From contig JANJXT010000063.1 of NCBI GenBank assembly GCA_024708885.1, forward strand, positions 1 to 64,000: a stretch of DNA of 64,000 nucleotides, read 5' to 3'. The DNA is from Thiobacillus sp. Its GTDB lineage: Bacteria; Pseudomonadota; Gammaproteobacteria; Burkholderiales; Thiobacillaceae. The translations under genes and the position numbers were made by a program. The notes under the pieces were generated by a model. That model ran no database searches. It saw only the letters and a program-made list of their open reading frames with translations, and had not been told where the DNA came from. How positions within the stretch are numbered: position 1 is the stretch's first letter; the number at the start of each line of letters is the position of its first letter. Positions 8,945 through 31,448 of the stretch are shown here, piece by piece.

Positions 8945-9012
8945 GCCGAGCTTTTACTCATGGTAGCGATGGCCTTGTAGTCGTGCTCTTTCACCAGTTT
9001 GTCGAAACCGAT
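8941..9012 (-). pseudogene. Orphan 3' end of a lost gene
   Basis: A reading frame of about 23 codons ends FDKLVKEHDYKAIATMSKSSA, with its stop overlapping the next start as ATGA. This is the same coupling used between intact genes of the island. It has no start of its own and abuts the stop of the gene at 9015. It probably marks a gene whose body was deleted. The family is not recognised, and chance remains possible. Confidence 0.35.
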
Positions 9013-9014
9013 AA

Positions 9015-10781
9015 TTATTTCGCGTAAGCTGCTATACAGCGCCCATTTCGTTCGACTGAATAGGCCAATTGCTGCCACCCACTCTTGAGGAGCGCATCGC
9101 GCAATTCAGCGCAACCCTGCAGCCCCTGATTTTTCAGCATCAAGAATGGGTCAATGACTAATGCGTCGACCCCTGCAGTCGCCAGGGCATTAACTAAATT
9201 TTCCGGCGAAGACAGTTGGTCTGCTGAAAACGAACCGAGTGCAATCAGATTGCTTCGTCCCCCTTGTGGGCCAAAACGATACGGCGAACACATGTAGTTG
9301 TTTATTTCGCTGGCGTATTCCCCTATGCCGAGCGCCCCCGGCGACTGGCATAGGCGGGATGCTTGTGGGCGTAGTTCATTGTAAATAAGTGCTAGCGAGC
9401 CCGCTTTGCTTGGCAGCGATAGCGATCGGTAGGTAGGCATCAACAGAATCAATGCGATAGCCAATATAGCCGCCCACAATATATCCAATTTTTTGAACCG
9501 TGCCATAAAAGTGGAAAGCATGATCGACACCACCCACATATACAACACCCCCACCCCCAAGAGATAGGACGGGCGAGGGCGTTGGGTAAGTATCACAGCG
9601 GCCGCCATAATCACCCCCGCCAACAGCAGGGGACTCATGATGGCCAGTTTTTTTCGAATTTCCGAATATTGCGCGGGGGATTTACGGAATATCACGATCG
9701 CACCGCCCACATTTATCATGAAGGTAATGACAAGCAGCACGGTCGGGAGCACAGGACTAACCAGAACTGGAGGGTAGTCCGGGTTATCGTGCGCACTTGT
9801 GGCATTAAATAGCAACACCTCCATACCAGCGCGCGTGAGCGAGAGGTTCCAAAGGAAATGCTCCGCCACTTCTCCAGGATTGGAGACGATCATTTCGCGC
9901 AGTGTTGGATGGGGGGCGCCAAATTTCACCCGCATCAGACTGGAGCACTCCGTCCACGGGCTGCCCACCCAATCGACGTGTCGCTGCTGATACCCGAATG
10001 CGTAGACCTGGCACATGTTCAGGGTGTGTTTCGGGGCCGACGCCTCGCGAATCGCTGGGCCTTTGACATAGGAAACCGAATAAAAATAGGCGACCAGCAA
10101 GCCCACTGCCAACAGCACAACTCCGTAGCGCAACCCCGCCGATCGCATCTCGGGAAAAGATACGGAGCGCCTTTTGTACGCATCCACAACAGCCAAAGCG
10201 GCAAGCACCCCAACCGCCAGAACATATTCGTTCCGGATGAGAATGGTACTAACCAAAGCAATACCCAGCAATAATGGCCATTTCCACTTCTCGCTTGCCA
10301 GGAAGGAAACTACGGTCATCACAAGGAGGGGTAGCGCACCGAACAAATGCACTTCATACAACGTGTCGTAGTGGATCGGCAGAACTATCCACCAGGCCAC
10401 CAGCAGCAACGCAAGAACGCGTGGCAGGGTGAGCCATCCCAGCCAAGCAACCAATCCGGTGGAAACCAGGATCAAGCCAACCCTGTGTAGCAAGGTGGCG
10501 ACATCAGCGTTTTCCGTGACACTCAACCAAGACCCGAAATAGGCGGTATACAACGGCGACCACACAATATTAACCTCGCCGTTTTGGTGCCATTGAACAG
10601 CATGCTGAAAATAGGATGAGGTATCGCCGAACGTAAGATCGCGTTCCCAGTACCCCCATAGCAATTTAATAACAATCAATAACACCAGCAATGCAAACAA
10701 CATCGCAGGGACCGTTGGAGCATTACCGGATGGCGCGCCCCGTTCGCCGATAGTCGCCTTGAAGAACACTTGCATCTTCAT
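9015..10781 (-). CDS. Polytopic membrane protein, putative GT-C type glycosyltransferase
   Basis: A 588-residue protein with about eleven hydrophobic segments, starting FALLVLLIVIKLLWGYW. The first large loop contains LTFGDTSSYFQHAVQW, an acidic loop of the sort found in GT-C enzymes. The C-terminal 150 residues are soluble (LRPQASRLCQSPGALGIGEY onward). The ATG at 10781 is supported by its ATGA overlap with the upstream gene stop (10778-10780). Base composition is visibly more AT-rich than in neighbouring housekeeping genes, consistent with acquired polysaccharide genes. A role in lipid-linked glycan assembly is inferred; the specific reaction is unknown. Confidence 0.7.
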   Translation of the reverse strand: MKMQVFFKATIGERGAPSGNAPTVPAMLFALLVLLIVIKLLWGYWERDLTFGDTSSYFQHAVQWHQNGEVNIVWSPLYTAYFGSWLSVTENADVATLLHRVGLILVSTGLVAWLGWLTLPRVLALLLVAWWIVLPIHYDTLYEVHLFGALPLLVMTVVSFLASEKWKWPLLLGIALVSTILIRNEYVLAVGVLAALAVVDAYKRRSVSFPEMRSAGLRYGVVLLAVGLLVAYFYSVSYVKGPAIREASAPKHTLNMCQVYAFGYQQRHVDWVGSPWTECSSLMRVKFGAPHPTLREMIVSNPGEVAEHFLWNLSLTRAGMEVLLFNATSAHDNPDYPPVLVSPVLPTVLLVITFMINVGGAIVIFRKSPAQYSEIRKKLAIMSPLLLAGVIMAAAVILTQRPRPSYLLGVGVLYMWVVSIMLSTFMARFKKLDILWAAILAIALILLMPTYRSLSLPSKAGSLALIYNELRPQASRLCQSPGALGIGEYASEINNYMCSPYRFGPQGGRSNLIALGSFSADQLSSPENLVNALATAGVDALVIDPFLMLKNQGLQGCAELRDALLKSGWQQLAYSVERNGRCIAAYAK

Positions 10782-12274
10782 TTTCGCAGCCCTGGCGCAC
10801 TCTCGACCGCCTGCTGTAACAACCAATCAATACTTGGGCGAGGCCGGATCACATAAAGCGATTGATAGGCAAATAAGCCCGGCATTAGCCGCGCCAATAC
10901 GCCATTGACTCCTACCATGAATCTTGAAAAAGCGTTGAGCCCTATGGCAAGCGGAAAAGGGGCGGGGATATATCGTCGATCCTCCACGCGGTATGCTGCA
11001 TATCGCAACAGGCGTTCGAGTGAACTCACCGTGAACAAACGGGTGTGCGTTATATCCAGAATACCGCGCCGGCCATAATTGAACTGGCCCAGAAACATCA
11101 TAAAACGCGTAATAAAGAAACATACATTGCCGGAGCTAACGATGATTTTTACCTTGTCGTTACCGGAGAGTTTAGCGCGCAGGTGTTCCAAAAACATTTC
11201 TGGATTATTTAAATGTTCAATGACATCCAATAAGATTACCATATCCAGACGATCCCACGGCACATTCGGTAACGAGGTATTCAGGTCGCAGGATTGGTAG
11301 CTACAGCCCGCAACGGTCTGCTCTTGCGGCACATCCACAGAGAAGACCACGCAATCTTTCTCTCGATGCAGGCGCTCCGAAAGATAACCATCCGCGCAAC
11401 CAAGATCCAATACCATGCTACGTTCTGGCACCTGCACGAAAGCAACAGAATGGGTACTCTGGAATTCAAACTTGCTTACATAATTCGTGGCCTTGTTCTG
11501 AAGTGCAAATTTCGGATCGAAGAAAATACCCATTCTGATCAAGCGTGCCTTAACGGATGCCTTGGTCACATCCCAGGCATACCTAAGCCCATTGACATGG
11601 CACACTTCCTCTCCGTAAAACGTCGGGATTGGCAATTCGACCACCCGCGCGCCAGAGAAAAATAATTGCACGATGATCTCGGTATCAAAATGAAAGTCGT
11701 CGGTATTCAGGTCAAAGGGTATTTTTTGAAGCGCTGTGACTGAATACGCTCGGTAACCCGTATGAAACTCCGATAGCTGTGAACCCAGCAGCCGGTTCTG
11801 CATGGCAGTTAATATCTGATTTCCGGCAAACTTATAAAATGGCATTCCGCCCTTCAAGGCATCGCGCCGATTAAGCATCCGTGAGCCAAATACCGCGTCC
11901 GGCTTACCCTGTTCGGCAAATGGCTCAATCAGTGTCGGAAGATATTCCGGCGCATACTGCCCGTCACCATGCAGCAGAACTACCACATCGAAACCATTTT
12001 CAATAGCATAGTGATACCCCACCTTCTGGTTGCCACCATAGCCCTGGTTCTCAGGGTTGCGCAGCACCATAAAAGGACACCAGAAGCCTTTCTCAAGGCA
12101 ATTCTGAGCAACTGCCTGGGTGTTATCCTTGCTGGAATCGTCGATTATCAGTAGCGACAGATCGTAATTCTGGGAAAGCTGCCGGGGGATGCGTTCGATC
12201 ACACTAGCAATACTCTTCTCGGCATTGTAAGCAACGATGAAGACAAGCACCTTTAGTTTGGTCGACGAGCTCAT
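10778..12274 (-). CDS. GT2 glycosyltransferase fused to SAM-dependent methyltransferase
   Basis: A 498-residue two-domain protein. The N-terminal 250 or so residues are a DPM1-like GT2 domain (VLVFIVAYNAEKSIASVIER, LLIIDDSSKDNTQ, VVLLHGDGQYAPE). The C-terminal part, from about residue 280, is a class I methyltransferase with motif I VLDLGCADGYLSERL and IVILLDVIEHL-type later motifs (MVILLDVIEHLNNPEMFL). The fusion suggests sequential sugar transfer and methylation, or methylation of a related lipid or sugar. The start at 12274 overlaps the upstream stop by ATGA. It is translationally coupled on both sides. Confidence 0.85.
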   Translation of the reverse strand: MSSSTKLKVLVFIVAYNAEKSIASVIERIPRQLSQNYDLSLLIIDDSSKDNTQAVAQNCLEKGFWCPFMVLRNPENQGYGGNQKVGYHYAIENGFDVVVLLHGDGQYAPEYLPTLIEPFAEQGKPDAVFGSRMLNRRDALKGGMPFYKFAGNQILTAMQNRLLGSQLSEFHTGYRAYSVTALQKIPFDLNTDDFHFDTEIIVQLFFSGARVVELPIPTFYGEEVCHVNGLRYAWDVTKASVKARLIRMGIFFDPKFALQNKATNYVSKFEFQSTHSVAFVQVPERSMVLDLGCADGYLSERLHREKDCVVFSVDVPQEQTVAGCSYQSCDLNTSLPNVPWDRLDMVILLDVIEHLNNPEMFLEHLRAKLSGNDKVKIIVSSGNVCFFITRFMMFLGQFNYGRRGILDITHTRLFTVSSLERLLRYAAYRVEDRRYIPAPFPLAIGLNAFSRFMVGVNGVLARLMPGLFAYQSLYVIRPRPSIDWLLQQAVESAPGLRK

Positions 12275-12621
12275 GCGGTTTTCCCTATCATGGCGACGCC
12301 CACCATCACCAGGAAAATACCGATGATTTGAGGCTGTTGGATACGATCTCCGAAGAACACTAGAGACAATAGTGGAACAATGACATAAGTAATCGCCAGC
12401 ATTGGATATGCGGTACTCAGCGAGACTTTGGATAACACATGCAGCCACATAAGCAATGCTGCCGCATAAAGGCTTAGCGCAAAGAGCAGGCGTGGCTCGG
12501 TGAATAAACTAATCAAACCGCGGAAACTAAAATCAATCTGTCCATGTTTGACCATGGCGTATTTTAGTAATACCTGACCGCAAGCCGATATAACTGCCGC
12601 GATTAAAGGGAGGTGCCACAT
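12271..12621 (-). CDS. Small EamA/SMR-type membrane transporter, ArnE-like
   Basis: A 116-residue protein with four predicted transmembrane helices (LIAAVISACGQVLLKYAM; FALSLYAAALLMWLHVL; TAYPMLAITYVIVPLLSLVF; IIGIFLVMVGVAMI). Length and sequence fit the half-size drug/metabolite transporter family that includes ArnE/ArnF lipid-linked sugar flippase subunits. Its place beside a DPM1-like GT2 fits flipping of a polyprenyl-phosphate sugar; that is inference. AGGAGC lies five bases upstream of the ATG. Whatever preceded this gene in the operon is now separated from it by an IS1380-type element. Confidence 0.82.
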   Translation of the reverse strand: MWHLPLIAAVISACGQVLLKYAMVKHGQIDFSFRGLISLFTEPRLLFALSLYAAALLMWLHVLSKVSLSTAYPMLAITYVIVPLLSLVFFGDRIQQPQIIGIFLVMVGVAMIGKTA

Positions 12622-12951
12622 TGGAGCTCCTAAAATAATTATGGGATGTTCGAGTGAAACAAAAAACTTATAGTGTGGCCCACGCCAATGGATTAGCAGC
12701 GTGCTACAAGGACAATCTGAATCCGTGCCCTCCTCCGCCGACACCTTCCCTCCGGGCCTGAACACATGGATTTCGAGTGTTCACCCCTTGGCTTTGCCTC
12801 CGCAATCGCCAGTCCGGGGTACCCTCAACCTCGATTTCTGGGCAAATCTGCCTTGTTCGTACCTGCCGTCAGCGCATTTTCTGCTCCATACGCGAGCTTG
12901 CCCCTTCCGGGGGACCGGAATCCACATTGCGTGGGTCGTGGCCGCTTGCCG
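12622..12951. other. 330-base gap with no recognised gene
   Basis: Between the small transporter and the transposase stop. Open frames here are short and show no recognisable family. It probably includes the left end of the IS element, but no convincing terminal inverted repeat was found by eye. Confidence 0.5.
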
Positions 12952-14316
12952 TCATCCCGAGGCTACCGCGGCCATCAGCCGGTTCTGCAGCATCACGAAC
13001 ACCGCCGCGTTTGCCGCCACGCCACGACCGAAGTCGAGAATCAGCCGGCGGGCATGGGCGGCGAACTTCGCCGCCCGGTACATGATTTCCTGCAGCACCG
13101 TGCGGATGCGGCGGCGCCTCGCCGGATGACGGATCGGCGCAATCTCGCCCGTCAGGCCGACCTGTCCCAGCAAGCGCAGGCAGTTGTAGGCGAAAGCCGC
13201 CAGATGCAGGATCACGTCGTTGGTGTCGAACCTGCCCGAGGGCAGGCGTTCCAGATCAAGGTCGGTCTTGAACTCGGAATGGAACTGCTCATGCATGCCG
13301 TGGTGCTTGTAGAGCCCGATCACGTCCTCGGTCGGGATCGCCAGCGTCGTCCACCAGCCTTCCAGCTCGATTTGCGGGGTCAGCAGATGCTGCCCTTTCT
13401 TGTCGATGGTGCGCTCGGTGACCTTGCCGATCAGCCGGAAGCTGCGCTTCTCCCTGTGCCAGGCGCGTTCGACGAAGAGCGACAGATGAGCGATCCGCTT
13501 GCCGGGGCGCATCTTTACGAAGGCACCCGCTTCCTCGGCGCGCACCACCCACCCGTCCTTGTCCTGCTTGCGGGGGTTCCACTTGCCGATGAAGTCGAAG
13601 CTGCGGCCCAGGGCGGCCAGACGCGCCTTCTCCTGCGCCTTGGCAAAGAGCAGGCGGGCGCTGTCGAAACCGCTGTCCTCGCGCAACAGGACGGGCGCAT
13701 CGGCCTTGACCAGACGCTCGATCCGGGGAAACAACCGCTCGTAGAAATACTCCGTCTCCAGTGCCGAGTGCTGCGCCCCCGGCCGCAGTTCCAGCCCGAT
13801 GTTCCAGCCCTCGTTGCCAAGGTACCCGGCAATGGGCGTGTACCCGTCAAAGCCCTGGTAGGTGCGCGAGACGTTTTCCTTCCTGGTGCCGCTGTTGTCC
13901 ATGGCGAAGGTGTCGATGTCGACACAGACATAGCCCCTGTGTGCGGTGATGGGCGCTTCTGTCCTCTCCAGCAGGCGCACGGAGAGCTCGTCGGACAGCT
14001 CGCGCAGGGCCGCGGCTTTGGTATCGAGCCGCTGGCGCAACCAGACGCTGCCGGGCACCTTCGACAGCCCGAGCGCTTCTTTGAAGAAGCGGTCTTCCCG
14101 AAACGGCTCGATGGCCTCGAAGTCGCTCTTGCCCAAGCTCAACAGCCCGACCACGCTCTTGACGATGTCCGAGGTGCGCATGCCCTGGGAGACCGGGAGC
14201 CGCGGGTCGATCACCGCTTCGACCTGGGCTGCCTGGCAGCATTGACCGATCAGCGCCAATCCGGAATACGAGGTCAGTTGCAGCTTGCTGGATTGCTTGA
14301 CTTCAAAGTGCGACAT
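12952..14316 (-). CDS. IS1380-family transposase
   Basis: A 454-residue DDE transposase that looks full length. Landmarks are YVCVDIDTFAMDNSGT (first Asp), GFDGYTPIAGYLGNEGWNI, VLLREDSGFDSARLLFA (second Asp) and the C-terminal QFHSEFKTDLDLERLPSGRF block with the catalytic Glu, all typical of the IS1380 group. It is as GC-rich as the core genome and sits between genes of the less GC-rich polysaccharide island. No frameshift is seen, so the enzyme may be active. Confidence 0.92.
   Translation of the reverse strand: MSHFEVKQSSKLQLTSYSGLALIGQCCQAAQVEAVIDPRLPVSQGMRTSDIVKSVVGLLSLGKSDFEAIEPFREDRFFKEALGLSKVPGSVWLRQRLDTKAAALRELSDELSVRLLERTEAPITAHRGYVCVDIDTFAMDNSGTRKENVSRTYQGFDGYTPIAGYLGNEGWNIGLELRPGAQHSALETEYFYERLFPRIERLVKADAPVLLREDSGFDSARLLFAKAQEKARLAALGRSFDFIGKWNPRKQDKDGWVVRAEEAGAFVKMRPGKRIAHLSLFVERAWHREKRSFRLIGKVTERTIDKKGQHLLTPQIELEGWWTTLAIPTEDVIGLYKHHGMHEQFHSEFKTDLDLERLPSGRFDTNDVILHLAAFAYNCLRLLGQVGLTGEIAPIRHPARRRRIRTVLQEIMYRAAKFAAHARRLILDFGRGVAANAAVFVMLQNRLMAAVASG
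12952..14316 (-). mobile_element. IS1380-family insertion sequence (ends not resolved)
   Basis: The interval given is the transposase only. Flanks on both sides were read for terminal inverted repeats and a target duplication, and none was convincing. The element breaks the otherwise overlapping gene chain of the island. Confidence 0.75.
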
Positions 14317-14375
14317 GGCTGGATGGGTGAAGCGGGAAATTTTCTAATTATGCAAGCTAATCAACGTATTATGAA

Positions 14376-15107
14376 TTATTTTTGGGCCGGGAGCACGGAC
14401 TCTGGATTGATGTGCCTCTCGTTATCCGCACCTTTATGAATAGTCCGTGCCAGTTTAAGGTAGGCGTCTTGAATTGTCGCGATGTTTGATAGAACACTAT
14501 TGGCCCCATGGATTCTCCTAAGCAATACCGTCGACTCAAGCATCGTCATTGCGACACCACCCCGTCTCGCTCGAACCATCCATTCTATGAATTCTCCCCC
14601 GGCAAGTGATTCATCGAAATTTCCAACCGACAAAAACGCCCCGCGTTCGATGAGCAAACACCCTGCGACGTAACCGGGAGCCGGGTCAGAACCGACCTTG
14701 TAGCGCCCCCGCAGCTCGGCCCCCAACTCGGGGCTGACAAATTGACGCACGCGGCCGAAAACACCCTTTAATTGAGGATGTTCGGTAAACACCGCCACCT
14801 GCTCCTCGAGTTTGGTGGGGAGCCAAAGATCATCGGCATCGAGAAAGGCAAGGTAGCGTCCCGTCGCGGCTGCCACGCCTCTGTTTCTCGCCGCACCCGC
14901 GCCTTGGTGCGACATGCTTAGTACCCTGATCCCTGAAAACCCAGCCGCAATCGATGCAGTGTCATCGGACGAGCCATCATCAACCACGATGATTTCAGCG
15001 GCTTGGTGTGTCTGTGCCAACACGCTGCCGATCGCACTGTGCAGATAGCGTGACGCATTGTATGCGGGAATGATGACGCTGATGCCCATGGACGCTGGCT
15101 CGATCAT
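14376..15107 (-). CDS. Family 2 glycosyltransferase
   Basis: A 243-residue GT-A fold enzyme: [58 protein letters not shown] and [15 protein letters not shown] with the DxD-type metal site. The ATG at 15107 overlaps the upstream PqqD-like gene stop by ATGA. Compared with typical family members the C-terminus is short, and the gene ends just beside the IS element, so some 3' truncation is possible. It probably transfers a sugar in the same pathway as its neighbours; the donor and acceptor are unknown. Confidence 0.88.
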
Positions 15108-15520
15108 GTTTCGTGCAGGTCCTGCATGGGCCAGCCCTGGGCCGGATCGACTTCATGAATCGGGTCGAGTTCGATCAGGCCGTGCAGATCGGAGTGGGTC
15201 TTGAGTTCGGGTTTTCCTTCTTTCACGGAGCGAAACGCCGACGTGTCGAATTCGATCTCGGAACGAGGCTCCGTCGCCAGCACCAGCAGTTCCGCGCTTA
15301 CCAATTGCTGTATGAAATCCAGTGCTTCCTTGGCCTGTAGCACACCTGTCTCCGCACAAGCGGTAGCAATCCTGTCGGGTGAAACGCCACGAACGAGCGC
15401 TTCCCACATGATTGACGCGATTCCATCAAGTGTGTAGTAAAAGCCGGTACTCGTATCAATGACGATCGTCTCGTTATCCAGAGTTTCATGTGCAACACGC
15501 GGTGAATTGGCTTGGTACAT
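15104..15520 (-). CDS. PqqD-like protein (RiPP-recognition-element fold)
   Basis: A 138-residue protein whose first 85 residues match Pqq[37 protein letters not shown], then a helical half ending in [13 protein letters not shown]. PqqD folds bind leader peptides in RiPP pathways. Related proteins are also known beside HprK-like kinases in systems with no known peptide. An acidic tail ends [20 protein letters not shown]. The start MYQANSP is preferred, since residues upstream overlap the nucleotidyltransferase frame. The upstream neighbours encode a nucleotidyltransferase and a kinase fusion, so the three probably act together. No precursor peptide gene is visible nearby. Confidence 0.85.
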
Positions 15521-15542
15521 GGTTTTATTACGCTCCGCCAGG

Positions 15543-17222
15543 TTATTCGATGACCTCGAGATCAATCGAGGGAAAAAGTGCGCCTTGACTGGAAAACCAT
15601 AACACGGTCTCCCGCAGGACATCGAGCTGGAGTCGGTACGATCCAGGCTCTCGTGGTGCATGAATCTTCATCGTACAGACCAGTTTCTGGCCGGGAGCGA
15701 CGTATGAAAGATGATTGCTGCGTGCATTCATGAAATAGGTTCTAGGCTGGTCCCACGCCAGCATTTTTCCATCGGTGGTCTGGAGGTGATAGGAGACCCC
15801 ATAAAGCGCCGGGCTGCTCTCGCGAACAAACCAACAGTGGGCGGAATCGTTTACTACGGCCAGTTCGACCTCGCCGGCTTCTCCGGCAGGAACAACCAAA
15901 CTCTTTGATTCTACCGGCACTTCGATTCGTGCGCGGTATTCCGGCAGCGTATCGTGCTCGAGGGTGGCCATCTCGCCAGTCCTGAGGGAAAGCCAGCCCT
16001 CCCTCCAGAACAGACGTTGCAGCGGTCTCACTGGATTTTTGAGCCCGCCAAGTCTGAACAACTGGGACAACCAAGGAAGTGTATGCCGATGAAGATGCAG
16101 CGACTTGATTCTGCCCATGCCATCCGTGTCGCAGCGTATGTATTTCGCTACGGATGGGTCGTGCACGAGGCGCCGGTAAGCCGATTTTCCACGCAACACG
16201 GCCATCCATGACCTCGGGTCACCGGCGGAAGGCGCCAGCAGGCTTCTGATTCTGGCTCGATCCGAGTGTTCGAGAAGGGCCGTCCTGTTTTCGCGCACGA
16301 GCGTGCGCACCTTCTCGCCGGCGAGCGTGTCGTCGGATTCGAACAAGGCATGCAGTTTGGCCGTGCTCAGCAGTCGCGGCGAGAACTCGTGCAGCAGCAG
16401 CATGGCATCGAAGGTGGCAGCGCGAAGACCACGCCGGCCGGCCTCTTGCCAGAGCAGGTCCCAGTCGAAACCCGGGCGTTCCCCGATGATCGCGACCGCG
16501 TCGAAAATCCATTCACAATGCATGGCATCCGGCTCACGCATTGCATTGAGCATCGCGATCAGAACAAGGTCTTCACGACCCAGCACACGCGTACGCAAGC
16601 CTTCCCATTCGACGATTTCAGATCTTTCCCAGAGGCCATCGTCGATTCCAGGCAGCGGCGATTCAGACAGCGCATACCAATGCAGATCCAGTCCGCTCTT
16701 ATGCGCATTGATGTAGTCATGCGAGTGAACGTCCCGCAGTTTCTTCGCGGGTGCGTACCGATAGGTCCACCCCAGACCTCCGAGGATCTCTTCCGCCATC
16801 TCCATATCCTCTCTGCGAATGAGGATGTCGACGTCACCCATCGGGCGTACGGCCAGATTTTTATGGTATTTGAGGGCGATCGCCAGCCCCTTGAAAACCA
16901 GGACATCGACGCCGGAGGCCATCAAAGCCCGTATCGCCTTGTGCGCATCTGCGGCAATCAAGCTGGTTCGGTAATGAAAGTAACGATAGATACCCTTCAT
17001 CCGGCCGTGATAGGGCTCACACAGCACATCGCCCCCAAAGCGCTTGAACAGTGCCGGAACGAGCCGCAATGACGCATAATCCAGCCGCTCGAAATCGACC
17101 TGCTCCACCCAGCGAAGCAGCGCACTACGGTCTTGCGGGGACTCGGCGAGCAGCGCGTGCAGAAGGTGTCGCTGCGTCGGACTGGTCGGCGGGACGTCTT
17201 CGAAGTGGGGCAGCAACGTCAT
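15543..17222 (-). CDS. Nucleotidyltransferase (PF14907-like) with C-terminal beta-sandwich domain
   Basis: A 559-residue protein. The N-terminal 350 or so residues fit the uncharacterised nucleotidyltransferase family: VDVLVFKGLAIALKYHKNLA, then RPMGDVDILIRREDM with the metal-binding Asp pair at residues 130 and 132, and LDLHWYALSES. The last 140 residues (from about RARIEVPVESKSLVVPAGEA) look like an Ig-type beta-sandwich, ending YRLQLDVLRETVLWFSSQG. Families of this type are known near HprK-like kinases in lasso-peptide and polysaccharide loci. Its start overlaps the upstream kinase-fusion stop by ATGA. Substrate unknown; nucleotidylation of a glycan, lipid or protein is inference. Confidence 0.82.
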   Translation of the reverse strand: MTLLPHFEDVPPTSPTQRHLLHALLAESPQDRSALLRWVEQVDFERLDYASLRLVPALFKRFGGDVLCEPYHGRMKGIYRYFHYRTSLIAADAHKAIRALMASGVDVLVFKGLAIALKYHKNLAVRPMGDVDILIRREDMEMAEEILGGLGWTYRYAPAKKLRDVHSHDYINAHKSGLDLHWYALSESPLPGIDDGLWERSEIVEWEGLRTRVLGREDLVLIAMLNAMREPDAMHCEWIFDAVAIIGERPGFDWDLLWQEAGRRGLRAATFDAMLLLHEFSPRLLSTAKLHALFESDDTLAGEKVRTLVRENRTALLEHSDRARIRSLLAPSAGDPRSWMAVLRGKSAYRRLVHDPSVAKYIRCDTDGMGRIKSLHLHRHTLPWLSQLFRLGGLKNPVRPLQRLFWREGWLSLRTGEMATLEHDTLPEYRARIEVPVESKSLVVPAGEAGEVELAVVNDSAHCWFVRESSPALYGVSYHLQTTDGKMLAWDQPRTYFMNARSNHLSYVAPGQKLVCTMKIHAPREPGSYRLQLDVLRETVLWFSSQGALFPSIDLEVIE

Positions 17223-19810
17223 GTTTCGGAATGCCGTTGCAAGAATTGCTGGAGAGACTGCGCGATTTCCGGCGGTTCCGTGCTCAGGTGCATTTCAAAG
17301 GCCGGAATCCTTGTGCATAGCCGCGACAAATCACGAAGCATATAGTTGCCGGTGCCGGGCATCTGCATGATGGTGCTGGCGGCGAATTCCGAAACGGCCT
17401 GCAAGGGAGAGATCGGCGCAAACGTGCTGGCAGCGGCATGACTCACTCGGGGCCGCACAAGCGCAACGGCCCGGAACGACGGGACGAGAGCGCCAAGCGT
17501 CTCATCCAGAATCACGACGCTCTTTTGACGCGGCGCGTTGCGCATGATGACGTATTGTTCGAAGGCAGGCAGGCGCAGCAGCGCATCGTCCATGACCTTG
17601 CATCCCCGATAGAGGTGATGCACCTGAAGGCTATCCGGATCTACGGCCACATAGTCGTCGCCGAGATAATCGAGGCCATTGAGGAGGCATTGCAGCGCAG
17701 TGGTGGATTTACCGGCGCCGCTTTGGCCGATCAAAAGAGCCCCTGTTCCACCCCTGCCTGCGGCGGCCGCATGCACCATGAGAATGCCATGCATCGCACA
17801 GATCCAATTGAAGAGCATGCGCATCGGCGTACAAATTTCATAGTCGGGGAGCTGGCGCTCGTCGGCAGCATAGTAATAAGCCTCACCCAGATCGGTATCG
17901 ATATAGCTGAAAATCTGCCCATCGGGGTTGTATTGCAGATGCCGCGCCCCATCGTTGATGACGGTGATCTTGTCTGGATAACGCGCCAATTCCCCCATGA
18001 TTTCAGGACACGGCACCATGCCGCCCCGGCCCACCCAGGCATGGATGGAGACCCCGGGGTTCGATTCCTGGCTGCCGGATTCGTCAACCAGGCCACGCAA
18101 GGATGGAAGAAACGCTTCTCGAAGTCCCCCGGCGGCCCAGGTTATGCGTGCCGGATGGCCCGCGATGGCCAAATTCGTTTGTTCCACACCGTGGCGGCTT
18201 GCATCACGAAAAGCGTCGCGTAGCTGCGACATCAATAGGGAAATATCTATCGCCATCAACCTGCCTCGCCCTTCATAAAGAACACGCCCACCGGATTCCG
18301 TGACTGGCAACCCAAGCAGTCTTGGATCACCGGGTGCGGGGAACGGGAGCAGACTGAAATCCAGGCGGCACCATCGCGCGCTGTCGACAGTCACTTCAAC
18401 AACGAGCCTGTGCGCTTCCAGCTTCACCCCAGTGCAAGGGATGCCCTCGAAATCGACCCGCAATCCCTCGTCAGGCCTGAGTGCTCGCGTCTCATGCCAT
18501 TCCATGACAAGCGTACAACGGCCCTGCGGCAATGGCAGCCACACCGACGCCGCAACGTGCGACCAGCGAATTCGTACTTCATCCTGGGTTTTCTCGCTCT
18601 CATAGAATCCAAGGAGTTCCACCCCTTGGCCCACCGACGCCGCCGCATCGGGAAACCACACGCCCGTTGGAGAGAAATCGACATTCCTGGAAAACGTTGC
18701 CCTCAGGGCTGGATTGTCTCGAAGGAAGCGCTGGCGCGACAACGCAACCAAGCTACCGAACCAGGCGACGAATGCATTTTTCGCGCCATGCGAATCCTCA
18801 TCGTCGATTGCCTTCGACAAGCGGCGCTCAGCACAGCGGGCCTGCTTTTTGGCGAATCTCTCTGCCATCCCCGGCAGCCAACCCTGTACGGCTGCACTCA
18901 CGCAATCATGCCAAAGGGAACGCAGGCGCAGGTGGCGGTCTCCTTGCTGCTCTCGCCAAGGCAGGCGGCGCGCCAACGCTTCCCGCAGAACACGCGCTTT
19001 GAGGCGAAACATGCGTCGGTCGTCATTTCGGGTGCGCTGGAGAAATTCGTCGAGCTCGGGAATGTTGGAAAAATAGACGGAAGTGGGCTCATTCCTGCAT
19101 TCCGCCAAGTATTTGATCTGTCCGTAGGCGAAATCGAGCGTGAATGCCTCAAGCTCCGGTACGTCTCCGACATAATGGTGTCGAAGCACTCTCGTCGGAT
19201 GCATCCCGACCACCAAGCCACGTCGATGCATCTCCGCCGCGAGCAACCATTCGGCGAAGTGGCCAAACTCGGGGCGAAATCCGCCTGCGGCGAAATAGGC
19301 TTCACGCCGGACGACGAAACATTGATCCATGACCTTCAGCCACCCCGCCGATTCGAGTTCCCGCTGGATATGCGACGCGTATATCTCGGCCTCCACCTGG
19401 GAGAGAAGGTTATGGACAACTGACGTGGTCGGGCAGCTGAAGCCCGCCCACTCCTGGTTTTCTGCGGCAATCCCGAGCAGCGTGGACAGCGCATTGGCGG
19501 CCGGCAGACAATGAGATTCCGTGAAGATCAGCAGATCACAGGTCGATTGCCGTGCCGCGGCTGCCACCAAAGGCATGTCGTGCCGGCTCGAATCCTGCTG
19601 AAAGCGATCCCACGGGCGCAGCGCTTGGCGGATCTCGCGTTCCGTCTCCCGATCCAGGGTATCCGGGGCGCATACGATCAGTTGGTAGCTTTCGGGGGGG
19701 CAGTCCTGTTCATGCGCCCAAGCCTTTATGCAGGCCACCGCTTGCCCACGATGGAACTCGACCGGAATCAGGATCGAGGCTTCCAATTCATGTCCTGCTT
19801 CGGTAAGCAT
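17219..19810 (-). CDS. GT2 glycosyltransferase fused to HprK-like serine kinase
   Basis: A protein of 863 residues from the ATG at 19810, with three parts. Residues about 8-240 are GT2-like (ASILIPVEFHRGQAVACIKA, MDQCFVVRREAYFAAGGFRP). Residues about 390-510 look like a beta-rich domain. The C-terminal 300 residues are related to HPr kinase/phosphorylase, with the P-loop LLIGQSGAGKSTT at about 692-704, preceded by HGILMVHAAAAG and followed by YLGDDYVAVDP. HprK-like kinases outside sugar regulation are known in lasso-peptide and PqqD-associated loci. Fusion to a glycosyltransferase suggests phosphorylation of a glycan intermediate or partner; this is inference. GGAG precedes the chosen ATG; starts at 19828 or 19852 (GTG) are also open. 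Confidence 0.8.
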   Translation of the reverse strand: MLTEAGHELEASILIPVEFHRGQAVACIKAWAHEQDCPPESYQLIVCAPDTLDRETEREIRQALRPWDRFQQDSSRHDMPLVAAAARQSTCDLLIFTESHCLPAANALSTLLGIAAENQEWAGFSCPTTSVVHNLLSQVEAEIYASHIQRELESAGWLKVMDQCFVVRREAYFAAGGFRPEFGHFAEWLLAAEMHRRGLVVGMHPTRVLRHHYVGDVPELEAFTLDFAYGQIKYLAECRNEPTSVYFSNIPELDEFLQRTRNDDRRMFRLKARVLREALARRLPWREQQGDRHLRLRSLWHDCVSAAVQGWLPGMAERFAKKQARCAERRLSKAIDDEDSHGAKNAFVAWFGSLVALSRQRFLRDNPALRATFSRNVDFSPTGVWFPDAAASVGQGVELLGFYESEKTQDEVRIRWSHVAASVWLPLPQGRCTLVMEWHETRALRPDEGLRVDFEGIPCTGVKLEAHRLVVEVTVDSARWCRLDFSLLPFPAPGDPRLLGLPVTESGGRVLYEGRGRLMAIDISLLMSQLRDAFRDASRHGVEQTNLAIAGHPARITWAAGGLREAFLPSLRGLVDESGSQESNPGVSIHAWVGRGGMVPCPEIMGELARYPDKITVINDGARHLQYNPDGQIFSYIDTDLGEAYYYAADERQLPDYEICTPMRMLFNWICAMHGILMVHAAAAGRGGTGALLIGQSGAGKSTTALQCLLNGLDYLGDDYVAVDPDSLQVHHLYRGCKVMDDALLRLPAFEQYVIMRNAPRQKSVVILDETLGALVPSFRAVALVRPRVSHAAASTFAPISPLQAVSEFAASTIMQMPGTGNYMLRDLSRLCTRIPAFEMHLSTEPPEIAQSLQQFLQRHSET

Positions 19811-19900
19811 CCGATCGTTCTCCATCATCGCGCCCGACCATGCAGGCACCACCGCGACGACGATTCGCCACGCATTTTCGTGCCTCCATACGAAATACCC

Positions 19901-21859
19901 TCAAGCGACGCCAAAACGCTTCCTCACCCGCATCCATACATCGCATCCGGCATGGCGCAAAAGATATGGCACCAATGCACGCCGAATCTCGGCCTGGGTC
20001 ACGTCCCGGCCAAGTTCGCGGACCCTCAATCGCCGCATCTCTTCCATTCCCACATCGTGAATCGCGGCCGAGGTTTTCTGTTCATCGTGAATACGGAAGG
20101 CACCAAGGAAACACGGCAAGCGCACGATGCGCGCGCCACAGCTACGAAACCGTAGCAACAGATCCCAATCCATGGCGAAGCGGAAGCTTTCGTCAATTTG
20201 GCCACCCGCTTTCTCCCAGATCGAACGCCGCCAGAACAAGGTTTCCTGAGGGATGAAATCGGCCCATGCGAGTGCATCGCCGTCGTGTCGAGGCAATATC
20301 CAGCGTCCGATCTCTTTGTCTTGCTCGTCGATCAGGATGCGGTGGCCATAGACCACATCCACCTCCGGGTGCCGTGCAAAATAATCGGCCACATAGGCCA
20401 GTGCGCCGGGTAGAAACAGATCATCCGAATTCAGCCAGGCCATGATCTCGCCGTGCGTCCTGGCGAAACCGAGGTTGATCGCCTGGCTCTGGCCATCATC
20501 CGGTGCGGACTCCCAACCCGACAAGCGATCCGAATACCGCTTCAGTACATCGATCGTGCCATCGTCCGAACCACCGTCCTGAACGAAGTATTCCAGATTG
20601 GGATAGCCCTGGTTCAGGACACTATCCATGGTCCGCCCGATAAACCCGGCCTGGCCGTAGGAGGGCGTCACGATGGAGACGCTTGGCCAGCCATCAGCCC
20701 TATGGTAGTCCTGCACTGCAGGCAAACCCCAAGACTGCAATGGAATGGGAGCATGGTGGCTAAGCTGCCCGAGTTTTGGGTAGCGATGGCGACTGAACAG
20801 ACTGCCAAGACGATACGCAAGGGAAAAACGGCGCAATGAATTCAAGCTTGCCTGCTGCTCCCTGATCACGTTCAACCTTGCATCGCAAATCTCCTGCAAC
20901 AAAGCCAAGGATGCACCAGGACAAGGGGCCTCGACAGCCGCCTCAATACCAGAACACCGCTTCATCCCCGACTGCAAATTCTTCAAGACATCCAAGATGG
21001 CTGCATTTCCGCCTTCTATCCGGGCCAAACATGCAGCAATGTTCTTGTTCAAGACGTCCCCCTTTTCTCCTTCCACTATGTTTTCTGGTTGCAAGCCCGC
21101 TTGAGTGCAGCCCGCGAGCCTTTGTAAACGCGCCTCCCGCTCATCACACACGGCAGCCAATTCCTGGATCGCCCGCTCCTTTTCTTCAAGCTGAACCACG
21201 GCATTGTCAAACTGTGCACGCAGATTGTCGTAATCCCGTATCTTGCTCATGACCGCAAGCCAATCCGTGCCTGCCTGCCGGGCATATTCGCGTAACGCGA
21301 CACCTGCGGAAGGCGGGAAAAAGAGGATCGTGTCATTCAACACCATGAGCTGATGCAACGGACTCGCCGTTCGCAATGCGCCCAGCACCGCAGTCAGATC
21401 CGGCCAATCGGAGATTTCATGTGGCGCCAGCGGTGGTGCCAGAAACAGACGTGCATCGTCGATGACGATCACACTTTGATCATTGAGCCGTTCGATGGCG
21501 CGCGTCTCGCCCAGCAGCGGGCACTGCGATGCCTCGCCTGCTGTGTTGTCTGCCACGCACCAGTGTGCGTCCAGAAAGTACAGCACCGATGCATCATGCA
21601 AGTTTGGCATCCACTTGGCCAAGGCCTCGGCAGAATCGCCACAGGCCAGATCGATATGGTCCTGACCGGCAAACCGCAGGCAAGCCGCCTCGTAATGCTC
21701 AGGGGACAGCTCTACGGAATGGATCGCCTTGAACCGATCCCGGACCCGTTCAACCGTATCCCCCCGGAAGGTTCCGGTTTCGACAAAGACGTCGAGGGGC
21801 AGCACCTGCTTCAGCGCCGCGACCAAGCCAAGATCGATCGAAAAGCTGACGGCGCCCAT
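19901..21859 (-). CDS. Methyltransferase, coiled coil and GT2 glycosyltransferase fusion
   Basis: A 652-residue protein. Residues 1 to about 165 are SAM methyltransferase-like (VFVETGTFRGDTVERVRDRF, SVELSPEHYEAA, VLYFLDAHW, VIVIDDARL). Residues about 205-350 form a helical, coiled-coil-rich linker. From about 390 a GT2 domain follows (PSVSIVTPSYGQAGFIGRTM, VQDGGSDDGTIDVL, MAWLNSDDLFLPGA, FAMDWDLLLRF). The architecture resembles multidomain polysaccharide chain-capping or chain-extending enzymes, in which a coiled coil acts as a molecular ruler; that parallel is inference. The start overlaps the sulfotransferase stop (TGATG). Confidence 0.85.
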   Translation of the reverse strand: MGAVSFSIDLGLVAALKQVLPLDVFVETGTFRGDTVERVRDRFKAIHSVELSPEHYEAACLRFAGQDHIDLACGDSAEALAKWMPNLHDASVLYFLDAHWCVADNTAGEASQCPLLGETRAIERLNDQSVIVIDDARLFLAPPLAPHEISDWPDLTAVLGALRTASPLHQLMVLNDTILFFPPSAGVALREYARQAGTDWLAVMSKIRDYDNLRAQFDNAVVQLEEKERAIQELAAVCDEREARLQRLAGCTQAGLQPENIVEGEKGDVLNKNIAACLARIEGGNAAILDVLKNLQSGMKRCSGIEAAVEAPCPGASLALLQEICDARLNVIREQQASLNSLRRFSLAYRLGSLFSRHRYPKLGQLSHHAPIPLQSWGLPAVQDYHRADGWPSVSIVTPSYGQAGFIGRTMDSVLNQGYPNLEYFVQDGGSDDGTIDVLKRYSDRLSGWESAPDDGQSQAINLGFARTHGEIMAWLNSDDLFLPGALAYVADYFARHPEVDVVYGHRILIDEQDKEIGRWILPRHDGDALAWADFIPQETLFWRRSIWEKAGGQIDESFRFAMDWDLLLRFRSCGARIVRLPCFLGAFRIHDEQKTSAAIHDVGMEEMRRLRVRELGRDVTQAEIRRALVPYLLRHAGCDVWMRVRKRFGVA

Positions 21860-22728
21860 CAGTTGGCCGTCTTGCTCAATTTTTCTATCAGGGCGAGCCG
21901 CTCATCGCAGGCCAACTTGAGTCCCTCGATTACGGCCTGCCGCGCGTCACAGACATCTTGCAGCGCCTTCTTTCCGGCCAGGAAGCGCCGCGAAGCCGCA
22001 ACCAGTTCGAGCCATTCATCGGGGACATCTCGTGTTGCAGCGGCGACCGTCTCGGGACTTGCATAGCCGAGCTCGACCATCGCTGCACCGTGGATGTGAA
22101 AAAACACGGCATCGATCACGGATGTCCAGCTTGGATCCCCTTTCCAGGCAACGTCCCCTTTCCTGAAAAACCTCGGCTCTTCCTGCTGCAATTCAGCGAA
22201 TGGGTTTTCCCAGGCGGAAGGCTCGCCAGAGTAACGAACCATCGTTGCCAATTCTTGCAAAAGATCACGCGGCGCATTCACCAAGTCCTCATAGCGGACC
22301 AACAAGGTATTTTCTCTCTCTGCCCAGGCCCGATAGTGCTCCGACCAGCCACCATAGAAATCATCACCAAGCACGAGATCAAGCAGCGAAGGCTGTGGCC
22401 GTGGCGTGAAATCGCGATGGAACTGCGCGTACGACACATACGCGCTGCGCCCGTCTCGCACCACATAGATGGCCGGTTGTTCATCGCGTGGCGGCTGATG
22501 GGTCTTGATCAGGAACACATCGGCAGATTCTGTTGCAAATCGGTAATATTCTTCCCAATCATGTATCACCGGTTCGGCATGGCCTATTTGATTACGTATG
22601 CTCGCACCCAGGCCAGGGCCTTCAAACATCATTTCGTCGGAAGCGGATTGCATGCCCAAGGTCCTGAACAACAAAGTGCGAAGCAGTGTGTTTCCGGAGC
22701 GAGGAAACGAAGCCAACCAGATGATCAC
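21859..22728 (-). CDS. PAPS-dependent sulfotransferase
   Basis: A 289-residue sulfotransferase. The 5'-phosphosulfate-binding loop is near the N-terminus (LASFPRSGNTLLRTLLF), and the 3'-phosphate-binding region is AIYVVRDGRSAYVSYAQFHR. FLIKTHQPP supplies the conserved K-T-H segment. The C-terminal 60 residues are helical and charged. Such enzymes move sulfate from PAPS onto a hydroxyl of a sugar or other small acceptor. Its position between the ABC exporter and the glycosyltransferases suggests the exported polysaccharide is sulfated, which is plausible for a sulfur-oxidising host. Acceptor specificity is not visible. Confidence 0.9.
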   Translation of the reverse strand: MIIWLASFPRSGNTLLRTLLFRTLGMQSASDEMMFEGPGLGASIRNQIGHAEPVIHDWEEYYRFATESADVFLIKTHQPPRDEQPAIYVVRDGRSAYVSYAQFHRDFTPRPQPSLLDLVLGDDFYGGWSEHYRAWAERENTLLVRYEDLVNAPRDLLQELATMVRYSGEPSAWENPFAELQQEEPRFFRKGDVAWKGDPSWTSVIDAVFFHIHGAAMVELGYASPETVAAATRDVPDEWLELVAASRRFLAGKKALQDVCDARQAVIEGLKLACDERLALIEKLSKTAN

Positions 22729-22942
22729 GTCAAGTACACCTCAATCCAGACAATTCAAAAAGCGGGTTTCCAATAGAACCTGCCAGTCGACCTGGACGCC
22801 AGAAACTGCGCCTCAGATAAAAGCACACCCAAGCCAGGCGTGACACCAAATTGCGGAGCCACATATTTTTGTGACTTTTTCAACAGGCTCGCGCAAGGCT
22901 GCCACGTGCACATGATTCGATTGGAATGCGCCCTCATGAAAT

Positions 22943-24313
22943 TCATCCTTCCGCGATCACTTCAATCGATCGCGCTGAAACAGGGAGGCCAAAAGGGCCG
23001 AGAAAGGGAACCTTTTCCAGCTCGTAGTGCGCCTCGACGGTGACGGGCCCGAGAGGCCCCGTCTGGCCCAGAATGGTTCCCAAGCCATTGGGGGGGGCCG
23101 GACATGCCATCATGACAGAGATTGAATAACCACCGCCACCCAGGCTCATCTCCACATCGAACTCCACCAATGCGATCGGGTCAGTTTGAGGCTCAACGGT
23201 GGCAGAGAGATCCAGAGAATAGGTACTGGTAGTAAAGATGATTTCATCGAAGCGGTTTTTCAGTTGCAAGTAAATATGTGCCTGTGCGCTTGGGTCGGGT
23301 ACAAAGTACACGTGCACATAAATCCTCTCCTTCATGCGCACGGTGGTGGCCATGTCACCATTGGCATTCAGGATGGCAACCGCCAACAGGCCCCCGTTTG
23401 CGGGGGGAGAATTTCCGCTCTTGCGGCGCCACTGTGCGGCATCGGGCAGCCGTGCCAGCAAGCTTTCAGACGTGCCCGCCACCTGATGGGCAACGTCTCG
23501 TGCACCGATGGTCTTCTCATCGCGGCTTTGCCCAAAATAGGCGCGGATGGCTCGGTGGGGGTCGCCATCATAACGGAGCTTCCCATTCTGCAAATACACT
23601 GCGCGGGTACACAAACTGGCGACGGTGTTCATGTCATGGGTGACAAAAAGGAGCGTCATCCCCTGTTCACGCAATTGACGAATACGGCCGAAGCATTTTT
23701 GCTGGAAGAAATAATCGCCCACGCTCAAGGCTTCATCAACGATGAGAATGTCCGGATCCAAGGCCACTTGTACGGCAAAAGCCAGCCGAATCAGCATGCC
23801 GCTCGAGAAGGTCTTGACAGGGCGGTCCAACACATCGCCGATGTCCGCGAAAGCGGCGATCTCGTCAAAGCGGTTTTCCACTTCCTCACGGGCAAGGCCC
23901 AGCAGCAAGCCGTTCAGGAAGACGTTTTCCCGGCCGGTGAACTCGGGGTTGAATCCACTACCCAACTCCAGCAGTGCCGCCACACGACCGGAAACCTGGC
24001 TCTCGCCGGAGGTTGGCGCCAAGGTCCCGGCCAGAATCTGTAGCAGGGTGCTCTTGCCGCTGCCGTTGCGCCCAATGATGCCCAAGGCCTCGCCTCGCCT
24101 GACCTGGAAGGAGACGTCGTCGAGCGCCCATAATTCGCGAAAATAAGTTCGCGGCAGACCGAAGTCCGCCAATCCCGCTGCCGTGCGCACGCGTGCCGCA
24201 GCTTGATGCACACGCGGCAGGATCAGTTGCTTCAGTCTGTCGCGCGCTGTCTCGTAGATTTCGTATCGCTTGCTCAGGTTGCGGACGTCGATGACGATTT
24301 CGTCAGAGGACAT
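22943..24313 (-). CDS. wzt: Polysaccharide ABC exporter ATP-binding protein
   Basis: A 456-residue ABC ATPase of the Wzt/TagH class. The N-terminal 250 residues have Walker A GIIGRNGSGKSTLLQ (about 78-92), the signature TFSSGMLIRLAFAVQVA and Walker B ILIVDEALSVGD. A long C-terminal extension (about 300-456) is beta-rich, as in Wzt proteins that read a modified chain end before export (AHIYLQLKNRFDEIIFTTST, GGGGYSISVMMACPAPP). It overlaps the permease gene by 11 bases. A carbohydrate-binding tail would fit capping of the chain by methyl, phosphate or sulfate groups from the genes downstream; that link is inferred. Confidence 0.92.
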   Translation of the reverse strand: MSSDEIVIDVRNLSKRYEIYETARDRLKQLILPRVHQAAARVRTAAGLADFGLPRTYFRELWALDDVSFQVRRGEALGIIGRNGSGKSTLLQILAGTLAPTSGESQVSGRVAALLELGSGFNPEFTGRENVFLNGLLLGLAREEVENRFDEIAAFADIGDVLDRPVKTFSSGMLIRLAFAVQVALDPDILIVDEALSVGDYFFQQKCFGRIRQLREQGMTLLFVTHDMNTVASLCTRAVYLQNGKLRYDGDPHRAIRAYFGQSRDEKTIGARDVAHQVAGTSESLLARLPDAAQWRRKSGNSPPANGGLLAVAILNANGDMATTVRMKERIYVHVYFVPDPSAQAHIYLQLKNRFDEIIFTTSTYSLDLSATVEPQTDPIALVEFDVEMSLGGGGYSISVMMACPAPPNGLGTILGQTGPLGPVTVEAHYELEKVPFLGPFGLPVSARSIEVIAEG

Positions 24314-25124
24314 CGGCGAACCCCCGGCGCGATTTCTGGAACCACCAGAAGCCCACTTGGCACACCACCACACCCACGGCGAGGCTGACGCCCCACTCCA
24401 CCCAGTCCAGCGGCTTGCCCCACAGCATCACGTCGCGCAGGTGGGTGATCGGCAGGGTGATCGGGTTCCACGCCAGGAGCGCCTGATAGGTGGGCGGCAG
24501 GGCTTCGATCGGATAGAAGACCGGCGCCAGGAACAGCGCGACGGTGGTGACGATGCCCATGACCTGCGCAAGGTCGCGCAGGTAGACGCCGAGCGAGGCG
24601 AATATCCACGACAGTCCCAGGATCGTCAGAATCAGCGGCAGCAGCACCAGCGGGACGAGCAGCACGCCCGCGTGCACCGGCACGCCGGCCAGCAGGCAGA
24701 ACGCCAGCAGCACGGCGAAGCTGACGAGAAAATGCAGCAGAGCCGAGAACAGCGCCATCCACGGCAGGATTTCAAGCGGGAACACCACTTTCTTGACGTA
24801 ATTGGCGTGGCTGGTGATGAGGACTGGCGCCCGGTTGAGGCATTCGGCGAAGAAGCTGTGCACGATCATCCCGGAGAACAGCACGATGGCGAATGCGACC
24901 CGGCTCTCTTCGCCGGTCCCCCATTTGGCCTTGAACGCGACGCTGAAGACGACCGTATAGACCGCGAGCATGAGCAGCGGATTGAACAGCGACCAGACGA
25001 CGCCCAGAACGGAGCCCTTGTAGCGCCCGATGAAGTCGCGCCGGACCAGATCGCGCAGCAAGCCGCGGTTGCGCATCAGGCTGGCGAGCATGGCGGAAGG
25101 GGCGGCGGGATACGGGGTGCTCAT
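24303..25124 (-). CDS. wzm: Polysaccharide ABC exporter permease
   Basis: A 273-residue ABC-2 type permease with six transmembrane segments. It begins with the cytoplasmic helix LRDLVRRDFIGRYKGSVLG and then LGVVWSLFNPLLMLAVYTVV. The family stretches ILPWMALFSALLHFLVSFAV and LAPVFYPIEALP are present. With Wzt it exports a lipid-linked polysaccharide such as O-antigen or capsule across the inner membrane. The start MSTPYPAAPS is chosen because the preceding in-frame sequence is Arg/Cys-rich and not family-like. It is the first gene of the island operon, so the promoter should lie in 25125-25257. Confidence 0.93.
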   Translation of the reverse strand: MSTPYPAAPSAMLASLMRNRGLLRDLVRRDFIGRYKGSVLGVVWSLFNPLLMLAVYTVVFSVAFKAKWGTGEESRVAFAIVLFSGMIVHSFFAECLNRAPVLITSHANYVKKVVFPLEILPWMALFSALLHFLVSFAVLLAFCLLAGVPVHAGVLLVPLVLLPLILTILGLSWIFASLGVYLRDLAQVMGIVTTVALFLAPVFYPIEALPPTYQALLAWNPITLPITHLRDVMLWGKPLDWVEWGVSLAVGVVVCQVGFWWFQKSRRGFADVL

Positions 25125-25257
25125 GCGTGCGGTGCGGGCGTGGCAAACGGGGAATTTTATCGTACGGCGGCACATTTCGCAGAAGCGTGCAGGATGCGGA
25201 CGCCTCGGCCGAACGGGTGTTTCGCTGCCGGACGTGGCGAGTCCAATCAACCCACGC

Positions 25258-30444: not shown

Positions 30445-30455
<11 letters not shown>
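29361..30455 (-). CDS. RhuM-family protein
   Basis: A 364-residue protein of the RhuM family (virulence protein RhuM of Salmonella pathogenicity island 3). It is commonly found next to type I restriction genes, with no firmly known function. Landmarks are [20 protein letters not shown], then [34 protein letters not shown] (the core motif) and [18 protein letters not shown] basic tail ends the protein. It appears complete. It overlaps the 3' end of hsdM by 11 bases, so it was expressed with the restriction-modification genes. It may be a surviving accessory gene of a dead locus. Confidence 0.88.
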
Positions 30456-31437
<982 letters not shown>

Positions 31438-31448
31438 CGTGTCCTGTC

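Follow-up and report, generated by a model that had tools for sequence, protein, structure and literature searches.

What does a PqqD-like protein act on, together with a nucleotidyltransferase (NTase) and an HprK-like kinase, when the three are encoded among polysaccharide genes with no recognizable precursor peptide beside them? The question is raised by a stretch of Thiobacillus sp. DNA (assembly GCA_024708885.1, contig JANJXT010000063.1, positions 1 to 64,000; here called the window, i.e., the whole 64,000 nucleotides analysed), whose minus strand carries tightly coupled genes for a PqqD-like protein, an NTP_transf_5 NTase and a fusion of a glycosyltransferase (GT)-like part with an HprK-like kinase part. 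The trio is real, as the original prediction had it: the NTase and kinase genes share an ATGA overlap (17219-17222), 22 bp separate the NTase gene from the PqqD-like gene, and the latter overlaps a GT2 gene by a further ATGA (15104-15107). The earlier inference of a carbohydrate or lipid-linked target fares less well. The PqqD-like protein was found to end in a conserved peptide tail, and because this conserved peptide is part of the protein itself, a peptide- or protein-centred system is favoured over a purely glycan or lipid target.

The PqqD-like gene (15104..15520, minus strand) encodes 138 amino acids from its likely start, the ATG at 15520; a longer open reading frame (ORF) up to 15661 would overlap the NTase gene. 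The plain PqqD proteins compared here have 90-104 amino acids, and the window protein is longer because of a linker and a tail. Residues 1-81 (15278..15520) constitute the PqqD domain, i.e., a recognition element (RRE) of the kind used for ribosomally synthesized and post-translationally modified peptides (RiPPs), which matches PF05402 with 25.8 bits (cut-off 23.4) and shows the RRE fold, closest to that of the lasso peptide protein B1 (TbiB1). A linker follows (residues 82-100, 15221..15277), then a leader-like segment of 18 residues (101-118, 15167..15220) with a predicted strand at residues 107-109, and finally a 13-residue motif of the DPIHEVDxxxGWP type (119-131, 15128..15166). Across the family, the linker spans 13-29 residues (median 20) and is rich in Ala and Pro, the leader-like segment reads [FYW]xxPxLxx[YF]xD[ML]x[DE]L in most members, and the nearly invariant motif reads DP[IV]H[DE]V[DE]xxxGWP. 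The window tail has Pro at position -15, Leu at -13, His at -10 and Asp at -8. A relative from the same order (L003) and a cyanobacterial plasmid (L005) have this tail as well, in proteins that are 35% and 29% identical to the whole window protein, respectively; within LDPIH.VD...GWP, all three agree at D, P, I, H, V, D, G, W and P.

The motif alone was then used as a query against a collection of one genome per species, which yielded at least 119 stretches; the 119 listed, together with seven loci retrieved by tail-containing queries (L003, L005, L007-L011), make up the 126 tail loci discussed here, on which the linker lengths above are also based. The motif lies in frame in all 119 listed matches, which come from at least 15 named phyla, six loci having no phylum in their titles. 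A PqqD-like domain precedes the tail in all 126 listed ORFs according to a profile built from the same sequences, and Pfam's own PqqD model matches 87 of the 93 members scanned; the protein ends 2-20 residues past the tail in 124 of the 126. The scan pattern prescribes D, P, H, V, G, W and P, with limits on the other letters, and the invariance of these residues in the 119 listed loci is therefore by selection. At positions outside the pattern, 94 representatives (less than 60% identity) show an aromatic residue or His at -10 in every case, Asp or Glu at -8 in 92, a hydrophobic residue at -13 in 92 and Pro at -15 in 71. In the rows that were not chosen by the pattern, i.e., the seven loci from tail-containing queries and those found by the kinase alone (L194, L197, L202, L198-L201, L214, L215), D, P, H, G and W are kept throughout; the last P is Thr in L198-L201, where the tail reads DPIHE[VI]KExxGWTPEK. 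Among 16 close sequences, several of them titled Mesorhizobium, the ratio of nonsynonymous to synonymous differences (pN/pS) was 0.34 in the domain, 0.43 in the linker, 0.17 at positions -12 to -1 and 0.02 in the motif, the last value being lowered by the way the loci were selected; synonymous divergence was similar across the regions (0.52-0.56). The alignment of PqqD-like proteins comprised 89 of the 93 non-window representatives (without L083, L136, L138 and L152) with the window, L198, L199 and L201, one version being made without L005; a further alignment had 79 rows, and the tail alignment comprised 60 of the 93 tails and the window.

With a profile of the tail only, 398 Pseudomonadota genomes gave 6 matches and 247 from the phylum of genome G453 gave 5, never more than one per genome, in ORFs of 148-235 amino acids and always with E <= 2.4e-11; no weaker match appeared up to 0.01. 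A profile of domain plus tail matched 41 of the same 398 Pseudomonadota genomes. The six matches with E < 1e-18 are those that bear the tail, and the remaining loci fetched from this search showed no motif. The tail is not seen apart from the PqqD domain in these searches. In AlphaFold models of two members, a strand lies directly after the leader-like P-x-L, in a block with a predicted local distance difference test (pLDDT) score of 93 (window) or 97 (L101), and the motif blocks score low (59-69). The same strand geometry is described for leaders in RRE crystals (PMC13381572), and the leader-like segment is predicted by the models to bind the RRE as an added strand.

The tail is also linked to the kinase. 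An HprK-like profile matches at 113 of the 126 listed tail loci, a GT2 at 100 and an NTase at 79, although many loci end early on one side; in the 35 listed loci with at least 2.5 kb on both sides, the kinase lies within that distance in 33, GT2 in 29 and NTase in 18. The association of kinase, GT2 and NTase with relatives that the tail motif alone retrieved from many phyla is beyond chance. The earlier suggestion that the trio forms one system holds in relatives as well, where the three families co-occur and glycosyltransferases are the usual partners. The smallest operons (such as L072, L073, L116 and L124) consist only of the tail-bearing PqqD gene, the kinase, two or three GT2 genes and the NTase. 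Those of L043 and L079 have an additional full-size ATP-binding cassette (ABC) ORF, a type present in 17 of the 126 listed loci; three of four such proteins scanned contain ABC_membrane and ABC_tran, and one ABC_tran alone. Kinase and GT2 form a single ORF in L053, L059, L120 and L147, in an order opposite to that of the window in the three scanned with Pfam. A Pfam scan of the 130 nearest of 178 same-strand unlabelled neighbours, in which families matched once are listed in part, found glycosyltransferases, ferredoxin-type oxidoreductases, Rieske oxygenases and radical S-adenosylmethionine (SAM) proteins (two matches) among the families matched by at least two neighbours.

The converse search, starting from the kinase, gave the same picture, within the limit that its profile was derived from tail loci. 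In 299 Pseudomonadota genomes, all five kinases with E < 1e-50, that of the window included, lie beside a tail-bearing PqqD gene, and in 194 genomes of the phylum of genome G451, all ten kinases with E <= 1e-30 (nine genomes) have one in the cluster, close by in eight (one being the L101 locus itself) and about 4.5-5 kb away in two. None of the 25 next-best kinase loci fetched has a tail within about 1.5 kb, and a plain PqqD is present in nine. A kinase tree of 75 rows, from which L118, L047 and L188-L190 (duplicates of L162-L164) were omitted, places all 49 kinases linked to a tail on the same side of a single branch with moderate support (84/97, below the level that earns the program's star; present in 86% of 200 bootstrap trees; shuffled labels average 21.8 changes). 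The kinase alignment comprised 38 of 41 kinase representatives (without L047, L094 and L118) and the window, whose kinase sits on a long branch with at most 31% identity to any other and keeps H694, DD 732-733 and K777, the residues conserved among relatives.

The nearest described system is that of the linear polyphosphorylated peptides (LPP; Popov et al. 2026, PMC13381572). The two share an RRE, an HprK-like kinase, an NTP transferase and a setting among glycosyltransferase genes, and the pairing of HprK-like kinase and NTP transferase beside an RRE was found in the window and in relatives. The LPP leader motif [Y/W]xxPx[L/V/I/F/A], which binds the RRE, is resembled by the tail described here, and the LPP kinase phosphorylates its precursor peptide, placing phosphates on Ser3 of the core of an RRE-recognized peptide (PMC13381572). 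The exporters are MsbA-like in LPP, to be set beside the full-size ABC ORFs counted above. The LPP system, however, is called Bacillota-restricted; its precursors are separate and vary at the C-terminus, its RRE is discrete, and it includes an SpI-like leader peptidase (PMC13381572). The RRE of the tail loci, which come from many phyla, is instead continuous with a leader-like segment and a fixed motif, and no signal peptidase family recurs there. Each part belongs to a known kind, and what is new is this variant, in which RRE, leader-like segment and fixed motif are joined in one chain. No description of the tail, of an RRE fused to its own precursor or of this combination was found in open-licence PMC papers, and the NCBIfam matches of the window PqqD-like and kinase proteins are far under their cut-offs.

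These observations lead to the favoured reading, to which we give an even chance, that the protein combines an RRE with a substrate or carrier peptide encoded in cis, and that this peptide serves a kinase/NTase/GT system akin to the LPP and paeninodin cassettes that lacks the precursor and peptidase found in those. The PqqD-like gene would thus encode an RRE carrying its own ligand. The leader-like segment may fill the RRE groove as an added strand, in cis or between subunits, from which the invariant motif would hang free, and the HprK-like kinase, the NTP_transf_5 enzyme and the GT2 enzymes may act on the displayed motif or on its cargo. Because the RRE with its tail is the only non-enzyme seen in the smallest operons, the simplest reading is that the tail is what the enzymes see; with RRE, leader and acceptor in one protein, neither a precursor gene nor a leader peptidase would be needed. 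The constancy of the motif from phylum to phylum makes a single conserved product likely, possibly a carrier-bound phospho-glycan or a cofactor-like group (or else a docking function), rather than a diversified antibiotic. More specifically, kinase, NTP_transf_5 and glycosyltransferases might form a phylum-crossing pathway that needs neither precursor gene nor leader peptidase and that assembles a single conserved phospho-glycan or cofactor-like group on the tethered His/Asp/Glu/Trp motif; this proposal is put forward tentatively, with somewhat less than even confidence. For the NTase, a precedent may lie in pseudomycoidin, where a nucleotidyltransferase homologue is required for the addition of one or two hexoses to phosphorylated Ser, its own transfer activity being unsettled (PMC9266682).

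Several points weigh against this reading. RiPP cores are usually variable. No Ser, Thr or Tyr is conserved in the motif (from DPIH to the end, such a residue is found in 60 of 92 members), and the characterized HprK-like peptide kinases use Ser; because there is no conserved hydroxyl residue, a plain copy of LPP chemistry is disfavoured. An NTase lies near only 18 of the 35 listed loci that have 2.5 kb on both sides, and other domains follow the tail in L217 and L218. The window tail has Glu at -18, the first leader position, which is Phe, Tyr or Trp in 65 of 94 representatives. The AlphaFold models were of single chains, from alignments all containing the tail, and the pairing partner of the strand is inferred; the linker of the window model has a pLDDT of 91-92, as confident as the strand, so that flexibility of the linker is not apparent there. 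No peptidase recurs, and hence no released peptide is implied. Finally, deletion of the NTP transferase had no effect on LPP in a heterologous host (PMC13381572).

A motif without a conserved hydroxyl acceptor is what would be expected if the leader-like segment were a built-in latch of the RRE and DPIHEVDxxxGWP recruited the kinase, NTase and GT2 to a scaffold, the real substrate (a glycan, a lipid-linked sugar or a protein) lying elsewhere. The near-invariance of the motif is likewise expected of a docking motif, and variant proteins fit such a role: L217:5086-7488 encodes one 800-amino-acid chain, PqqD-tail-PqqD-PqqD-kinase, in which each of the three RREs is followed by a leader-like stretch, as read from the sequence, but only the first by the full motif, and the kinases of L198:1114-2610, L200:1081-2610 and L201:1108-2634 carry a C-terminal PqqD-like domain of their own and have a separate tail-bearing PqqD protein beside them. 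These last three loci are from genomes of 1.7-2.1 Mb of the phylum of G451. L218 is a natural PqqD-tail-kinase fusion, which, like that of L217, also counts in favour of the tethered-substrate reading. However, no other candidate substrate protein was seen in the smallest operons, and a separate small precursor is not enriched. We regard docking as a possible explanation, though one on the doubtful side. If the motif is a docking tag, it would indicate how kinase, NTase and GT2 are brought together; if it is an acceptor, HprK-like kinases and NTP_transf_5 enzymes of many phyla would have a substrate assigned to them, and the protein would be a natural design with RRE and leader in one chain.

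The view first taken of the locus, that the trio modifies a carbohydrate or lipid-linked intermediate of a polysaccharide exported by Wzm/Wzt with the PqqD-like protein as an accessory, appears improbable. In the window, the run is indeed shared with glycosyltransferase, sulfotransferase and Wzm/Wzt genes, as Pfam matches confirm, GT families are common among the neighbours, and a Wzm/Wzt-like pair occurs in the cluster of L214. That is the only other cluster in which such a pair was seen, a full-size ABC ORF being found instead in the 17 loci mentioned above; several relatives are self-contained operons that stand alone, no ABC-2 permease family is among the families matched by at least two of the 130 neighbours, and the tail is left unexplained. 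The Wzm/Wzt link is local. A conserved small peptide next to the trio in relatives had been named as what would argue against glycan modification; such a peptide was found, within the PqqD-like protein rather than beside the trio. The statement that no precursor peptide is visible holds for a separate one, none being enriched nearby.

The search for a separate precursor covered small ORFs near the listed tail loci. Of those lying outside larger ORFs, 6 of the 254 on the operon strand and 18 of the 278 on the opposite one contain [YWF]xxPx[LVIFA]; within 1.6 kb of the 119 listed tail-bearing PqqD genes, the counts were 9 of 196 on the operon strand (the tail ORF of L128 itself among the nine) vs. 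14 of 225. In the control, i.e., the same test beside 34 plain PqqD genes, 7 of 79 on the operon strand (five of the seven precursor-like by eye) compare with 3 of 68. A separate precursor with an N-terminal leader is thus not enriched nearby, the full LPP motif and the rest of the genomes not having been searched. An LPP-like system whose ordinary precursor is encoded off the operon, with the tail as a competitor or regulator filling the RRE, would agree with the core enzyme types common to LPP (PMC13381572) and with the likeness of the tail to leaders, but it is very unlikely in view of these counts, which cover the neighbourhood and so leave room for an unlinked precursor. As the original prediction had noted, neither a lasso cyclase nor a peptidase was seen: the ten window proteins scanned include no SpI-like leader peptidase, no lasso Asn-synthetase-like cyclase and no B2 peptidase, and no signal peptidase, lasso cyclase, B2 peptidase or transglutaminase-like family is among those matched by at least two of the 130 neighbours.

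Other known systems share single features with the favoured cis-encoded arrangement. The paeninodin and pseudomycoidin systems (PadeK, PsmK, PsmN; PMC9266682) have HprK-like kinase and nucleotidyltransferase genes together with a precursor peptide; unlike these, the tail loci show no recurring lasso cyclase or B2 peptidase family, no free precursor was found, and a C-terminal Ser preference was not found, only 7 of 92 members ending in Ser. HPr-rel-A (TIGR04352, TIGR04353) shares the PqqD-like and HprK-like pair, but the window kinase scores 31.1 bits against a TIGR04352 cut-off of 200, and the window PqqD-like protein has no match to TIGR04353 at E <= 0.01, a level at which 8 of 93 relatives match. 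The same genome contains a second PqqD-HprK-NTase trio of this plain kind (G000:C39 = L187:5230-8077), which is tail-less and whose kinase lies on the tail-less side of the kinase tree, opposite that of the window; this trio adjoins a 188-amino-acid protein with a twin-arginine-like N-terminus, judged by eye. In the pathways of pyrroloquinoline quinone and mycofactocin, a precursor with residues fixed across taxa is combined with a PqqD-type chaperone, as here, but the precursors are separate and short and radical SAM enzymes act on them; in the present neighbourhoods, radical SAM was matched by only 2 of 130. Several PqqD/HprK/NTase cassettes have no known target, and each member of the tail family names a candidate peptide. 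In a survey of RRE structures, 21% of PF05402-matching proteins are larger than a discrete RRE and carry no further Pfam annotation (PMC12710340), a set to which the tail-bearing PqqD family would belong.

The remaining genes of the window run lie on the minus strand. The NTP_transf_5 NTase (15543..17222, 559 amino acids) matches PF14907 with E 6.6e-34, its domain occupying 16383-17033; about 280 residues C-terminal of the domain (15543-16382) have no Pfam match, and the NTases of several relatives are likewise long, at about 490 amino acids. The original prediction of an HprK-like kinase is correct for part of its gene (17219..19852), the kinase being the C-terminal part of an 877-amino-acid fusion protein whose N-terminal part is weakly GT-like (TIGR04283, E 0.0019). 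The kinase region (17222..18217) has a Walker A sequence GQSGAGKST at 17702-17728 and matches PF07475 with E 1.4e-4 and 21.9 bits, under the cut-off of 33.3. The GT2 gene that overlaps the PqqD-like gene (14376..15107) matches PF00535 with E 1.6e-33, and upstream of the kinase lies a gene (19901..21859) for a protein with a GT2 domain in its C-terminal half (PF00535, E 3e-21). Local neighbours are a sulfotransferase (21859..22728; PF00685, E 1.1e-13), a Wzt-type ATPase with a Wzt_C domain (22943..24373; PF00005, PF14524) and a Wzm-type ABC-2 permease (24303..25250; PF01061, E 1.2e-26).

The G+C content is 56.9% in 9000-25250, 64.9% before and 67.1% after, and a good match to the PqqD-like protein was found in none of 35 same-genus genomes, G014 giving only a weak one (E 0.0015) with an internal stop. 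Because of this low G+C content and the absence of a good match in the genus, 9000-25250 is likely an island acquired by transfer. A transposase-like ORF (12952-14316, minus strand), which is probably IS1380-like, lies among the polysaccharide genes, some 60 bp away from where the GT2 gene ends. Further along, at 29361-31521 on the minus strand, are two ORFs that presumably encode a RhuM-type protein and a type I restriction methyltransferase.

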